Assembly (NCBI RefSeq): GCF_037914945.1
Contig: NZ_CP149787.1
Location: 2,542,001-2,606,000, forward strand
Source: Haloterrigena sp. KLK7
GTDB lineage: Archaea; Halobacteriota; Halobacteria; Halobacteriales; Natrialbaceae
Reading direction: 5' to 3'
Length of the DNA: 64,000 bases
Within the stretch, counting starts at the first letter, position 1. Each line of letters starts with the position of its first letter. Positions 57,972-64,000 of this stretch are shown here, one piece after another. A program made the translations under genes and the position numbers. The notes below the pieces were generated by a model. The model ran no database searches and was not told where the DNA came from. It worked only from the letters and a program-made list of their open reading frames with translations.

Positions 57972-58676
57972 CTACACCAGCGCCGAGAGCGCGAGGGCGA
58001 CGGCGACGCCGAAGACGGGGTAGTCCAGCCGCGAGAGCGACAGCGCGGGCAGCGTCGGATTCCAGGCGAAACACCGCGCCTGCATGGCGAGCGCGAGGCG
58101 ATCGGCCCGGTCGAACGCCCGCGAGAGACCGAGCAGTCCCAGCGTGCTCGCCCGCTCGGTCGCGCTGCGCTCGTCGCCCAGCCGCGCCGCCATCGCGTCG
58201 CGGATCGTCCGCAGGTCCGCCTGCAACACCGGGAGAAAGCGGAAGACGAGCGCGACGCCGACGCCGAGCAGCTGGCCGGGCTTCCCGGGGATCGTCCGCT
58301 GGATCGCGGCTCGAGAGTCCCGGACCGTCGTCGAGCGGACGTACGCCGCGCTGACGAGCAAGACGAGCAGGACGCGGTAGCTCGCCCGCGCGGAGGCGAG
58401 GCCGTCCGCGGGGTCGATCCAGGGCGGACCGAACGTGAGCGCCGCGAGCACCGGCGCGAGCGCGAGAAAGCCCAGTGCAAAGCGATAGGCGGAGAGCGTC
58501 TCGAGCAGCGGGACTCGAGCGGCGAGCAGGATCGCCGCGGTGACGGCGGTGAGCGCGACCAGCGCCCGTGGGCTCGTGTGGGCCAGCGCGGTCGCGGCGA
58601 ACCCGAACTGGACGGCCAGCTTCGAGCGGGGATCGAGCCGGTGGGCGAGCGTGTCGTCGGGATCGTAGCTGAGCAT
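57972..58676 (-). CDS. bioN: ECF transporter transmembrane component (EcfT/BioN)
   Basis: This 234-residue membrane protein couples the ATPase to BioY for biotin import. It has five or six hydrophobic helices. The EcfT signature includes AMAARLGDERSATER (with the ARG-type motif as AMQARCFAWNP later). Its gene follows ecfA and bioY on the same strand. The cobalt variant CbiQ is excluded by the bioY linkage. Confidence 0.85.
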   Translation of the reverse strand: MLSYDPDDTLAHRLDPRSKLAVQFGFAATALAHTSPRALVALTAVTAAILLAARVPLLETLSAYRFALGFLALAPVLAALTFGPPWIDPADGLASARASYRVLLVLLVSAAYVRSTTVRDSRAAIQRTIPGKPGQLLGVGVALVFRFLPVLQADLRTIRDAMAARLGDERSATERASTLGLLGLSRAFDRADRLALAMQARCFAWNPTLPALSLSRLDYPVFGVAVALALSALV

Positions 58677-58776: not shown

Positions 58777-59481
58777 TCAGACGTCCGGCACTCGAACCTC
58801 GAGGGCCGACAGCGCCTCGAGCGCGCGGTCGGGCGCGTCGTCGACGGCGACCGCGCCGTCCCGCATGGCGACGATGCGGTCGGCCGGGTCGAGCACGTCC
58901 CGGAGGTCGTGAGTCGCGAGCAGGATTCCGGTCCCTTCCCCGGACAGCGCCTCGAGTCGCGAGAGGACCGATCGTCGAGCGGGATCGTCGAGCCCGGTGA
59001 ACGGTTCGTCCAGGACGAGATGGGTCGGTTCCATCGCGAGCGCGCCGGCGATGGCGACGCGGGACTGCTCGCCCCCCGAGAGCGCGTCGATCCGCTCGTC
59101 GCCGCGGCCGGTCATGTTCACGGCCTCGAGCGCGTCCGCCACGCGGCGGTCGATCTCGTCGCGCTCGAGGCCGAGGTTCTCCGGGCCGAAGGCGACGTCG
59201 GCGCCGATCGTCGCGGCGACGAACTGGTCGCGCGGGTGCTGGAAGACCATGCCGACGCGCGAGCGGGCGGCGACGAGGTCCTCGGTGACCGGTGTGCCGT
59301 CGACCAGCACCGCGCCCGAGTCGGGCGTCACCAGCCCGTTGCAGTGGCGCAGCAGGGTCGTCTTGCCGCTCCCGTTGGCGCCCGCGAGGACGACGAACTC
59401 GCCGTCGTCGATGGTCAGCGAGACGTCCTCGAGGACCGGGACCTCGTCGAAGGCGTAGGTGACGGACCGAAACTCGATCAT
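58777..59481 (-). CDS. bioM: ECF transporter ATP-binding protein (EcfA/BioM)
   Basis: This 234-residue ABC ATPase powers biotin uptake. It has Walker A GANGSGKTTLLRHC, Q loop VFQHPRDQF, signature LSGGEQSRVAIAGALA, Walker B HLVLDEPFTGLD and switch His in LATHDLRDV. A single ATPase gene suggests homodimers. It lies between bioY and ecfT. Confidence 0.9.
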   Translation of the reverse strand: MIEFRSVTYAFDEVPVLEDVSLTIDDGEFVVLAGANGSGKTTLLRHCNGLVTPDSGAVLVDGTPVTEDLVAARSRVGMVFQHPRDQFVAATIGADVAFGPENLGLERDEIDRRVADALEAVNMTGRGDERIDALSGGEQSRVAIAGALAMEPTHLVLDEPFTGLDDPARRSVLSRLEALSGEGTGILLATHDLRDVLDPADRIVAMRDGAVAVDDAPDRALEALSALEVRVPDV

Positions 59482-59521: not shown

Positions 59522-60109
59522 TCACGATCCGACCGGCTCGAGTCGCCCGCTCTTCACGATCGCGATCGCGGCGGCCATCTTGACCAGTTCGGCGGGGACG
59601 AACGAGAGCGCGTAGACGGTGATCGCCTCCCAGGGCTCGAGGGCCTGGAGCCAGGCCGCGTAGGCCGTCCCCATGGCGTAGATGAGGATCGTCCCGGCGA
59701 CGAGCGCGCCGACGACGATCGGCAGGGGGACGTCGGCGGGGTTCTGGAGGTCGGTGCCCCGGTGAACGACGGCGCCGATCAGCGCCGCCGCGAGCGGGTA
59801 CGACCAGAGGTAGCCCGCGGTGTTTCCGACGAGGGGGCCGAACCCAGCCTCCATCCCCGAGAAGATCGGGAGTCCGGCCGCACCGGCGGTCAGATAGCAG
59901 AGCATCGAGATCGCTCCCCAGACCGGCCCCAGCACGAGGCCGGCGAGGAAGACGAACAGCACTTGTAGCGTGATCGGCGCTGGCGAGAACGGGTACGGGA
60001 TCGTCACGAATATCGACGCCCCGACCAGCGCCGCCAGCACCGCCGCGCGAGCGAACTGGCGGACGACGTCCCCCTCGACGAGATCGACGGACTCTCGGTT
60101 CGTTGCCAT
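59522..60109 (-). CDS. bioY: Biotin transporter substrate-binding subunit BioY
   Basis: BioY binds biotin in the membrane. The 195-residue protein has six helices, with the conserved PYPFSPAPITLQVLFVFLAG, GLPIFSGMEAGFGPLVGNTA and GYLWSYPLAAALIG motifs. The start at 60109 (MATNRESVDL) follows a TATA-poor promoter that overlaps a BirA-type inverted repeat. It leads the three-gene transporter operon, so biotin probably represses it. Confidence 0.9.
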   Translation of the reverse strand: MATNRESVDLVEGDVVRQFARAAVLAALVGASIFVTIPYPFSPAPITLQVLFVFLAGLVLGPVWGAISMLCYLTAGAAGLPIFSGMEAGFGPLVGNTAGYLWSYPLAAALIGAVVHRGTDLQNPADVPLPIVVGALVAGTILIYAMGTAYAAWLQALEPWEAITVYALSFVPAELVKMAAAIAIVKSGRLEPVGS

Positions 60110-60122
60110 ACCACACCGATTC

Positions 60123-60154
60123 TCGTAAACCAAGTTCAACACTTCGGTTTCCGA
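60123..60154. promoter_or_regulatory. BirA-type biotin operator upstream of bioY
   Basis: TCGTAAACC-N14-GGTTTCCGA agrees with the known BirA operator TTGTAAACC-N(14-16)-GGTTTACAA at 8 of 9 and 7 of 9 positions. The halves are complementary at 8 of 9 positions. The site lies 14-45 nt upstream of the bioY ATG on the minus strand, at the core promoter. The BirA consensus is from bacteria; its use here is inference. Confidence 0.6.
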
Positions 60155-60429: not shown

Positions 60430-60615
60430 ATGTCATCCGTACGTAGGCGGTTCGGACCACGGCGCGATCGGGAACCGAGACGAAGCCAGCGATCGACTCG
60501 CGAACGGTGGGGACGCGACGGTCGCACGGACCGTTCGAACCGCGATCGCCGCTCGGACCGGTGGGAGCGCAATCGCCGCTCGAGGGGACGGGGCGGCGGG
60601 AGCGTCGAGCCATGA
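60430..60615 (+). CDS. Possible basic Arg-rich ORF overlapping the repeat protein
   Basis: This 61-residue ORF (MSSVRRRFGPRRDREPRRSQ onward) is about 40% Arg, unlike the acidic proteome. It has a TATA-spaced ATG and ends in an ATGA overlap with the large protein gene. It may be a translated leader or only a G/C-rich shadow; the latter is a serious possibility. Confidence 0.25.
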   Translation: MSSVRRRFGPRRDREPRRSQRSTRERWGRDGRTDRSNRDRRSDRWERNRRSRGRGGGSVEP

Positions 60616-63600
60616 ATCGGCGTCGAGGAGCGGCCGTTGCAGTGCTCGCCGTCGCCGCGCTGCTGGTCACGAGCGCGGTGGCGCTGCCGCTGCTCGGCGG
60701 CGGTGTCGTCCCGTTCGAGGGCAGCGAGAGCGCTCCCGGCGGGGGAGACGGCGAAACGACGGATATCGCCGCTGCAGACAGTGTAGCCGCCAGCCAAGAC
60801 GATGGCAGCGGAAGTACGGATTCCACCGCCGCGGACGCGGCGGATCGAGAACCCGTGCGTGCGAGCCAGTCGGCCGCGGACGGCGAGTTAGTGTCGTTCG
60901 ACGCTGCGACGGAATCGGCCACGACCGACGCGGAGGCGACCGCCGACGCTGACGCGAGCGCCTCGCTCGCACAGGAACAGACGACGGCCGTCGAGGCCGG
61001 CGTCGACGAGGGGATGGAACTGGCCCAGCAGCAGGGCGTCGAGGTGACCCAGGAACAGCGCGCGGCGGCCGTCGAGGCCGCCAGTCAGTCGGTCGCCCAG
61101 CACCAAGCGGCCGACGCCGAGCAGATTCAGGCCGCGACGGCCGGCGCGGTCCACGGCTCGCTGATCCAGTCCCAGGACGCCGAGATCGAACAGCTCCAGT
61201 CCGCGATCGGCGGCGCGACCGACGGCGCGCTCGCCCAGTCGCAGACGGTCTCGGCGAGCCAGATGCAGAGCGCGACGTGGGGGGCGACCCACGGCGCCCT
61301 CGCGCAGAAACAGCACGCCGACGTCGACCAGATTCAGGTCGCCACGCGCGGGGCCGCAGCGGGGGCGTGCCGGGAAGCGGGCGATAGCGACGTTCGGGAC
61401 CCCCCGAAGACCCAGGAGGCCGCGCAGGGGGCGGCCTACGGCGTCCTCGAGCAGTATCAGAAGATCACCGTCGAACAGCGCCAGCGGATCACGCTCGAGC
61501 ACGTCCAGCACGCGGCGGCCGGCGCGTCCGCGGGCGCACTCGAGGGGAGCACCGCGGCGGCCCTCGAGGGCGAACAGGGCCAGGAGATCACCGTCGAACA
61601 GCGCCAGCGCGTGAACATCAAGCAGGTGCAGAAGGCCGCCACGGGCGCCGCGAAGGGCGCGCTCGTCCAGCGTCAGGAGGTCACCGTCGAGCAGACCCAG
61701 GCCGCGGCCCGCGGGGCGGGCAGGGGTTCGCTGACGCAGCTCCAGACCGTCAGCGTCGAACAGGTCCAGCGGATCTCGATCAGCCAGATCCAGGAGGCCT
61801 CCTTCGGCGCGGCCAAGGGCTCGATTTACCGGAGCCAGTCGGCCACGGTCGAGCAGATTCAGGCGGCGGCCGACGGGGCCGCGGGCGGCGTGCTGGTTCA
61901 GCACCAGGAGATTTCGATCAGCCAGATCCAGTACGCCGCGGTCGGCGCGTCCCAGGGAGCGATCGAGTCGGCGGTCCAGTACCAGATCGCCGATATTCAG
62001 CAGATTCAGGCCGCCGCGTTCGGCGCCGGCGAGGGGTCGGTGCTCCAGCAGCAGGTCGTCGATATCACGCAGGTCCAGCGGCTGGCGTCCGGCGGTGCCA
62101 GCGGCGCGCTGAGCCAGTATCAGTCGGCGACCGTCGAGCAGATCCAGATCGCCGCCAGCGGCGCCACGCAGGAGACGGCCCGCGTCGTCCAGTACCAGCG
62201 GATCAGCGTCACGCAACTGCAGGTCCTGACCCAGGAGACCGCGTCCGACGCCACCGCGTACGCGGTCCAGCAGGAGATCGACGATATCACCGAAATCAGG
62301 CAGTACGTCGAGGACGCGGCCGAGGATCGCGCCGACGAGATCGACGAACTCGAGGGAACGGCGTCGATTACGTTCGCCGACCGGGAAGGCGACGGCGAGA
62401 CGGTCGCCGTCGACGAGGTCGACCTCTCGGAGGGCGGCTTTGTCGCGATCTACGCGGCCGACGCCGTCGCCGATCCGGGCGCCGTTCTCGGGACCTCGAG
62501 CGCCCTCGAGGCCGGGACCCACTCCGACGTCGAGATCGACCTCGAGGAGCCGATCGAGGAGGACCAGCCCCTCACCGCAGTGGTCCACCACGATACGAAC
62601 GACGACGGAACGTTCGAGTACGGCGATACCGACGGGGCGGAGGACGTCCCGTACGTCACCGACGCCGGCGTGCCGGTGCTCGATACGGCGTTCGTCTCGG
62701 TCGGCGACGAAGTACAGGGACCGCAGGAACCGGCCGAGCCGAACGCGACGCTCTCAGTGAGCGATCAGACCGGCGACGGCGAGACCCTGACCGTCGACGA
62801 AGCGAGCGCGACCGTCGACTACACCGTAACGGCGACGGCCAATGAGTCGACGGCCGAGAGCCAGTCCTTCGAGGCCAACGAGACGGTGACGGACCTCGAA
62901 CTCGACCTCGAGCCGCCGCTCGAGGCAAATGCGACGGTCGACGTGGCCGTCATCGACGAGAACGGGACACCTCTCGAGAACGAGACGGTCGAGTACGCGG
63001 TCGACGGGGCGGGCGACGATGTCGCCGACAACGCTGACGAGGCCGAGGGAATGCTCGCGGTCACGGACTACGAAATCGACGTCGGCGAGGGTAACGCCGG
63101 AGACGAATACGTCACGATACAGAATAACGGCGACATCGCGATCGATCTCTCCGGCTGGACCATGCAGGATCGCTTCGAAGACGGCGTCGTCGATTCGCTC
63201 GGCTGGGAGCCATTGACGTTCCCGGATGGCTTCGTCCTCGAGCCCGGTGAGGAAGTAACGATCGTAACAGGTCCAGGCAACGACACCGCTGATACGCTCT
63301 ACTGGGGCCACGAGTCGCCAGTCTGGAATACCTCCAGCGACGAGGTCATCGTTCTCGACGAAGACGAAGATGTCGCCCTGCAGGAACAGATCGAAGCCGA
63401 CCAGCCGAACGAATCGGCGGCCACGCTCAACGTGTCGGATCAGACGGGCGACGGCGAGACGCTCGTCGTCGACGAGGCGAACGCGACCGTCGACTACCGG
63501 GTCACCGCGACCGACGAGAACGGCACGCAACGCGGGGAGAGCGATCTCTTCGAGGCCAACGAGACCGCCGAACTCGAGTCGCTCGACCTCGAGCCGCCGC

Positions 63601-64000
63601 TCTCCGAGAACGCGACGCTCGAGGTCGCCGTCACTGACGAGAACGACACGGCACTGGCGAACGAATCCGTCGAGTACACGGTCGACGGCGATCCGGCGAC
63701 GTTCGAGGCGACGTTCCCCAGTTGTTCGCAGGCCGAGGTGACCGGTTCCTTCGAGGAGGGCGACACGATCATCGTCGGGACCGCGTTCTACGAGAGCGGC
63801 GGCTTCGGCAACTCGATGGGCGAGTACGCCGTCACCGTCGGCGAGGACGTCCCGGCGCCGTTCGAGGGGACGCTCACCTACGAGACCGGTGACGACTTCA
63901 CCGTCGCCGAGACGGCCGACGGCGCGACCGTCACGGTCCCCGAGGGCGATACGGGCGCCGTGATCACCGGCTTCGCGTCGCCCGACGCGACGCCGGGATC
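60612..64000 (+). CDS. Giant exported glutamine-repeat protein, 3' end beyond window
   Basis: The gene is open from ATG 60612 to the window end (over 1,129 codons, no stop). Residues 1-25 (MNRRRGAAVAVLAVAALLVT) form a Sec-like signal or anchor. A low-complexity acidic/Ala region follows (about 35-140). Then come about 16 glutamine-rich repeats (residues about 145-558). A DUF7282-like domain follows (about 582-698, ITFADREGDGETVAVDEV...HHDTNDDGTFEYGD). Two copies of a beta domain (VSDQTGDGETLTVDEA... and VSDQTGDGETLVVDEA..., about 708-801 and 931-1026) flank a lamin-tail-like domain (about 813-922, YVTIQNNGDIAIDLSGWTMQ). Likely a surface or adhesion protein; function unknown. Confidence 0.85.
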   Translation, partial: MNRRRGAAVAVLAVAALLVTSAVALPLLGGGVVPFEGSESAPGGGDGETTDIAAADSVAASQDDGSGSTDSTAADAADREPVRASQSAADGELVSFDAATESATTDAEATADADASASLAQEQTTAVEAGVDEGMELAQQQGVEVTQEQRAAAVEAASQSVAQHQAADAEQIQAATAGAVHGSLIQSQDAEIEQLQSAIGGATDGALAQSQTVSASQMQSATWGATHGALAQKQHADVDQIQVATRGAAAGACREAGDSDVRDPPKTQEAAQGAAYGVLEQYQKITVEQRQRITLEHVQHAAAGASAGALEGSTAAALEGEQGQEITVEQRQRVNIKQVQKAATGAAKGALVQRQEVTVEQTQAAARGAGRGSLTQLQTVSVEQVQRISISQIQEASFGAAKGSIYRSQSATVEQIQAAADGAAGGVLVQHQEISISQIQYAAVGASQGAIESAVQYQIADIQQIQAAAFGAGEGSVLQQQVVDITQVQRLASGGASGALSQYQSATVEQIQIAASGATQETARVVQYQRISVTQLQVLTQETASDATAYAVQQEIDDITEIRQYVEDAAEDRADEIDELEGTASITFADREGDGETVAVDEVDLSEGGFVAIYAADAVADPGAVLGTSSALEAGTHSDVEIDLEEPIEEDQPLTAVVHHDTNDDGTFEYGDTDGAEDVPYVTDAGVPVLDTAFVSVGDEVQGPQEPAEPNATLSVSDQTGDGETLTVDEASATVDYTVTATANESTAESQSFEANETVTDLELDLEPPLEANATVDVAVIDENGTPLENETVEYAVDGAGDDVADNADEAEGMLAVTDYEIDVGEGNAGDEYVTIQNNGDIAIDLSGWTMQDRFEDGVVDSLGWEPLTFPDGFVLEPGEEVTIVTGPGNDTADTLYWGHESPVWNTSSDEVIVLDEDEDVALQEQIEADQPNESAATLNVSDQTGDGETLVVDEANATVDYRVTATDENGTQRGESDLFEANETAELESLDLEPPLSENATLEVAVTDENDTALANESVEYTVDGDPATFEATFPSCSQAEVTGSFEEGDTIIVGTAFYESGGFGNSMGEYAVTVGEDVPAPFEGTLTYETGDDFTVAETADGATVTVPEGDTGAVITGFASPDATPG
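61044..62285 (+). repeat. About 16 tandem Gln-rich repeats, period 23 residues
   Basis: The typical unit, such as VEQIQAAADGAAGGVLVQHQ plus three residues, is 23 residues: x-x-Q-[IVL]-Q-x-A-x-x-G-A-x-x-G-A/S-L-x-Q-x-Q-x-x-x. Several copies have exactly 23 residues, while others carry 2-20-residue insertions. The spaced Gly/Ala positions resemble helix-packing motifs, and the Gln pairs repeat at fixed distances at the unit ends. DNA copies have diverged, so this is an old array. Confidence 0.8.

Follow-up and report, generated by a model that had tools for sequence, protein, structure and literature searches.

A BirA-like operator over the bioY promoter of haloarchaea

The biotin transporter locus and its probable operator

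Three successive minus-strand genes of the window (the whole 64,000-nucleotide stretch of Haloterrigena sp. KLK7 that was analysed) match Pfam BioY, ABC_tran and CbiQ, so that the originally predicted gene order, bioY-ecfA-ecfT, is correct. The first, bioY (59522..60109), encodes a biotin ECF transporter S component of 195 aa (PF02632, E 1.6e-36); in the same presumed operon follow an ecfA-type ATPase (58777..59481), for which the best NCBIfam model is an ECF ATPase scoring below its cut-off, and an ecfT-type transmembrane component (57972..58676; Pfam CbiQ PF02361, with NCBIfam CbiQ below cut-off). On this domain content, the row of BioY, ABC ATPase and CbiQ-type membrane protein is a biotin ECF transporter. 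Divergent from bioY, a large frame on the plus strand (60507-64000), in which a motif of the VEQIQxAAxGAxxGxLxQ type recurs, runs out of the window.

The BirA-like operator occupies 60123..60154, exactly the position originally reported, and is defined by the sequence itself together with the bioY promoters of relatives. Its half-sites (60123-60131 and 60146-60154) flank a 14-bp spacer (60132-60145), the letters on the window strand being TCGTAAACC-AAGTTCAACACTTC-GGTTTCCGA and the reading on the bioY strand TCGGAAACC-N14-GGTTTACGA. A gap of 13 nt separates it from the bioY ATG (60109, minus strand). At three or fewer mismatches there is one such place only in the 64 kb, reported on both strands because it is near-palindromic, while 100 shuffles gave a mean of 0.04 matches. 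Searching the 4.64-Mb genome with the symmetrical form TCGTAAACC-N14-GGTTTACGA at the same threshold returned three places and a backward control none; these lie at bioY (one mismatch), at bioB (one mismatch) and, with three mismatches, within a frame of about 700 codons.

Aligning 63 bioY promoter records, restricted to those with a 14-nt spacer, gives a logo in which several half-site columns reach 2 bits, and a CGAA and an AT-rich TT-A-W block stand between the halves. In the window, the BRE-like CGAA (60143..60146, minus strand; columns C9-G10-A11-A12) overlaps the last base of the upstream half-site, and the TATA-like TTGAA (60135..60139, minus strand; AT-rich columns 16, 17, 19 and 20) lies within the operator spacer. 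The operator thus covers the BRE/TATA-like region, bearing out its predicted placement at the bioY core promoter. Of the haloarchaeal motifs proposed in PMC4983044, the BRE, CGAAA, is matched by the bioY CGAA, and the TATA, TTWT, roughly by the AT-rich TT-A-W block. The same paper gives 72% of Hfx. volcanii protein-coding transcripts as leaderless (PMC4983044); the TATA-like block lies some 27 nt ahead of the bioY ATG, a position that would fit a leaderless bioY transcript.

The BirA protein encoded by the same genome

A search for a birA with an N-terminal HTH found one: a single BirA match is present in the genome, at C1:2669270-2670205, encoding 312 aa with HTH_11, BPL and BPL_C domains, each above the Pfam cut-off. 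The N-terminal winged HTH scores 48 bits with HTH_11 against a cut-off of 25, and the catalytic and C-terminal BPL domains are recognised above cut-off by PF03099 (59.2 bits), PF02237 (57 bits) and TIGR00121. The NCBIfam biotin-repressor domain, TIGR00122, matches under its cut-off (50.5 vs 70 bits), as do the NCBIfam models for full-length bifunctional BirA. There are two PF03099 matches in the genome, one of them this BirA; the other is weaker and reads as a lipoate-ligase-like ORF.

Among solved structures, the protein aligns, HTH included, with chain 1bia over query residues 11-296 and with 3v7c/8eni over residues 16-303; all are bifunctional BirA chains, the former of E. coli and the latter of S. 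aureus. Its putative recognition helix is SRAAVWKQIDGLRDAG, a stretch that is close to SRAAINKHIQTLRDWG, the sequence aligned with it in the bifunctional BirA chain 8f8u. When the search is limited to the first 75 residues, NiaR-type repressors (E 1.7e-5) rank highest among the solved structures, followed by BirA chains (E 0.004-0.03), and the top solved match to the whole protein is a ligase that aligns only from residue 77.

Conservation of the operator upstream of bioY

The level of operator conservation was studied in a panel of 76 genomes, comprising 53 of 61 genomes (this one included) and 23 further ones. These provide 78 bioY records, as one record (L099) duplicates another (L046, from G048) and one genome (G012) has two bioY genes. 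By BirA type the panel divides into 67 genomes with an HTH-bearing BirA, six with an HTH-less BirA and three that were set apart (G050, G401 and G332), the presence of the HTH in the 67 being judged by the extent of the protein match to BirA. Genomes in the second panel (26 for BirA, 42 for bioY) were picked for unusual or missing BirA matches and are not a complete set of the unusual ones, so that the 67 and six genomes do not form a random sample. In each record the interval running from 120 nt before the bioY start to 60 nt after it was scanned for two half-sites separated by spacers of 13-15.

A site with at most five mismatches in 18 positions is found in 67 of the 78 records, a level that shuffled half-sites reach in approximately 0.9% of 3120 tests. 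By genome, the site is present in 65 of the 76 examined when G332 is counted, and in 64 of the 67 that have both bioY and an HTH-bearing BirA; hence the operator is kept across orthologous bioY promoters, the comparison that had been suggested as a check. Its geometry is similarly constant, with the spacer being 14 nt in 64 and the start lying at -44 or -45 in 53 of the 67 site-bearing records. Eleven bioY loci from named organisms, some of which seem to be in the panel already, all have the operator with one to three mismatches; they include Haloterrigena salina, Natronorubrum, Natronolimnohabitans, Natrinema ejinorense, Natrialba chahannaoensis, Halostagnicola, Natrarchaeobius and a Natrialbaceae MAG.

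Three genomes, G041, G043 and G060, encode an HTH-bearing BirA and yet have no site at bioY. Two of these, G041 and G060, keep the site at bioB, and the bioY promoter of G043, a genome that is 81% complete, keeps the left half-site only. In another incomplete genome (G397, 85% complete; record L061) the match to the HTH of BirA and that to its ligase part fall in different frames, as if the gene were frame-shifted, yet the bioY site is present.

A second probable operator at bioB and other candidate sites

The search for further sites also met with success, since a second site in this genome lies on bioB, whose product is identified as BioB by TIGR00433. This site has one mismatch and lies over the start codon, the right half-site beginning at the last base of that codon. 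The operator is found at the start codon in all 35 strong bioB matches among the 61 relatives, with one to four mismatches, and in 32 of the 35 it has the identical place and a 14-nt spacer. A TATA-like tetramer (from a loose list of six) occurs within the 13 nt preceding the left half in 34 of 35 cases, and the mean AT content of these 13 nt is 75%, as against 39% further upstream. The right half is coding in part and may owe some of its conservation to protein constraint; the cleaner evidence therefore comes from the left half, which has one to three mismatches in nine positions in all 35 and is the less perfect of the two.

No operator was found upstream of birA in this genome, where the best candidate has seven mismatches, or in its 3.5-kb biotin-carboxylase stretch, where the best has six. 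In some archaea the BirA regulon takes in carboxylase or birA genes, but such co-regulation is optional and not defining. Of the places outside bioY and bioB among the matches listed, 14 were looked at, 13 of them in relatives and one in this genome, and all have three mismatches. Frames of at least 100 codons contain 13 of the 14, which were rejected as likely chance matches in coding sequence; the exception is L134, and L129 and L132 are ambiguous. Also among the matches listed is a site with two to three mismatches at L035:1501-1532, which recurs in near-identical sequence in G007, G013, G027, G028 and G029. In this genome its counterpart falls within a long coding frame, and what is conserved there is probably the protein; recurring coding sites of this type serve as a warning of false positives.

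Joint absence of the HTH domain and the operator

Six genomes combine bioY with an HTH-less BirA: G333 and G373 (genus g93), G201, G157 and G360 (genus g78), and G054. In each the BirA match does not begin until close to the ligase domain, and Pfam shows no HTH. None of the six has the operator at bioY, the best candidates having seven to nine mismatches. Comparing 64 of 67 genomes with an HTH-bearing BirA to none of six with an HTH-less one gives a Fisher exact p of 4.9e-7, a value that ignores shared ancestry and includes a second panel picked for odd BirA matches. In a ligase-domain tree of 27 rows, the HTH-less label requires three changes, or three to four in bootstraps, with a single change in 0% of 200 bootstrap trees; the best-supported branches of this tree force just one.

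Two further genomes with an HTH-less BirA, G038 and G051, have no bioY match. A survey of 391 genomes for BirA, in which up to five candidates per genome were scored at E 1e-20, left 16 with no BirA match among the matches listed, and 14 of these were also without a bioY match. This agrees with Halorhabdus utahensis, described in PMC3102087 as being without both BirA and bioY. As regards the three genomes set apart, G332 (L109) has no BirA or PF03099 match, its bioY match is short and its operator decayed, as if the biotin pathway were in the course of being lost; in G050 BirA is diverged, with only a weak HTH-like match under the cut-off, and there is no bioY site; and G401, which is 82% complete, has neither a BirA match nor a bioY site.

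Other candidate inverted repeats were observed in the bioY promoters of both HTH-less genera. In g78, GACGTT-CCGT-AACGTC lies just upstream of bioY in G201 (L100), with a similar repeat in G157 (L105) and a weaker version in G360 (L104), and it is possible that a replacement regulator acts there. In g93, GAACC-ACAG-GGTTC, which is unlike the BirA site, is found in L088 (G333), and one base off in L089 (G373). An inspection by eye of five bioY neighbourhoods, using a rough gene finder, revealed no shared gene for a replacement regulator near bioY in the HTH-less genera; in G360 alone a DtxR-like start, again read by eye, adjoins bioY.

Interpretation of the palindrome

The palindrome can with high confidence be read as the operator of BirA, the biotin-protein ligase that doubles as a repressor; judged by sequence, the same biotin-sensing repressor that serves bacteria very probably docks there. 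Matches with three mismatches do occur inside genes, as would be expected if the resemblance had arisen by chance, but the shuffle expectation of 0.04 in the window and the occurrence of a site at bioY in 65 of the 76 genomes leave chance with a negligible probability, and we consider it refuted by conservation. It could also be supposed that the sequence is merely a strong core promoter with a palindromic look, as some of its conserved columns are BRE- or TATA-like. However, the most conserved columns sit in the half-sites, the palindrome recurs at a different position, the start codon, in all 35 strong bioB matches, and the bioY promoters of the six HTH-less genomes are without it. The logo and the site data from bioY and bioB thus lead us to reject a core promoter alone as a very improbable explanation.

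A site does not by itself identify the protein that binds it, and a biotin regulator unrelated to BirA, the GntR-family BioR, exists in bacteria (PMC4554459). Accordingly, another haloarchaeal regulator of biotin genes might use the palindrome, with the HTH of BirA a bystander. Against this, the palindrome fits the BirA consensus in both sequence and spacing (PMC545781), and the site is missing from all six bioY-bearing genomes in which BirA has no HTH, making the involvement of a different regulator improbable.

Proposed mechanism and significance

Bacterial BirA dimerises when driven by biotinyl-AMP, binds DNA and represses transcription. If haloarchaeal BirA behaves as its bacterial family does, then with ample biotin, and with the biotin-accepting carboxylase already loaded, it would keep its biotinyl-AMP and dimerise, each N-terminal winged helix of the dimer settling on one half-site. 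When biotin is scarce it would be monomeric, and biotin uptake and synthesis would be on. The step blocked would, judging from position, differ between the two genes: as the bioY operator spans the BRE/TATA-like region, a BirA dimer there would exclude TBP and TFB, while at bioB, where a TATA-like sequence immediately precedes the operator and the operator covers the start codon, it would exclude RNA polymerase.

A broader reading can be put forward tentatively, as a possibility that may well not hold in full: one bacterial-type ligase-repressor would act on eukaryote-like core promoters across haloarchaea through two blocks, of TBP/TFB at bioY and of the start site at bioB; the HTH would have been lost several times, each time with the bioY operator absent where bioY remains; and another regulator might have taken over in g78 and g93, acting on the other inverted repeats in the bioY promoter.

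That the haloarchaeal bioY case is an ordinary instance of a regulatory switch common to two domains of life is well supported by these sequence comparisons. A repressor and operator recognisable on both bacterial promoters and archaeal TBP/TFB promoters offer a chance to see a bacterial-type switch on eukaryote-like machinery, for which the natural genomes with an HTH-less BirA are ready-made controls. Haloarchaeal genetics also gains a predicted biotin-repressible promoter.

Comparison with known systems

Rodionov and colleagues, in 2002, reportedly predicted the BirA regulon for bacteria and archaea, and are said to have found that the presence of the HTH correlates with that of sites, BirA being the first regulator whose signal proved to be conserved across the two domains. 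bioY is a member of this regulon. The BirA consensus in print, TTGTAAACC-[N14/15]-GGTTTACAA, with bioB among its targets (PMC545781), and the title of Rodionov, Mironov and Gelfand (2002, Genome Res), which claims a BirA signal conserved in Eubacteria and Archaea, make the haloarchaeal operator a further member of the known regulon. The originally noted likeness to the bacterial site stands, the haloarchaeal form being one base per half-site away from the consensus as given in PMC545781: position 2 is C (83%) and position 31 is G (94%), where the published bases are T and A. No description of a haloarchaeal BirA operator was found in the titles and opening lines of abstracts among the literature matches listed. 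The present analysis adds that HTH and operator are absent together, that the operator takes up two different positions on its promoters, and that a clean test is available.

With the BirA regulon the haloarchaeal system has in common the regulator architecture, the palindrome core GTAAACC/GGTTTAC, the N14 spacing and biotin genes as targets; it differs in the promoter that carries the operator, which here is archaeal and BRE/TATA-like. Ligases that have the N-terminal domain and ligases that lack it are described as mixed over the prokaryotic tree, with both forms in Halobacterium (PMC3199775). The S. aureus-type BirA (3v7c, whose sequence is common to 8eni) is alike in its alignment along residues 16-303 of the query, HTH included, the haloarchaeal protein having 312 aa and its membership coming from sequence alone. 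E. coli BirA is a bifunctional ligase-repressor, and between bioA and bioB of E. coli K-12 lies TTGTAAACC-N16-GGTTTACAA. This operator and the haloarchaeal one are both inverted repeats and hold the half-site core in common; by contrast, the spacer is 16 nt in E. coli and 14 nt here, and the E. coli operator belongs to a bacterial promoter, the haloarchaeal one to a promoter of the TBP/TFB type.
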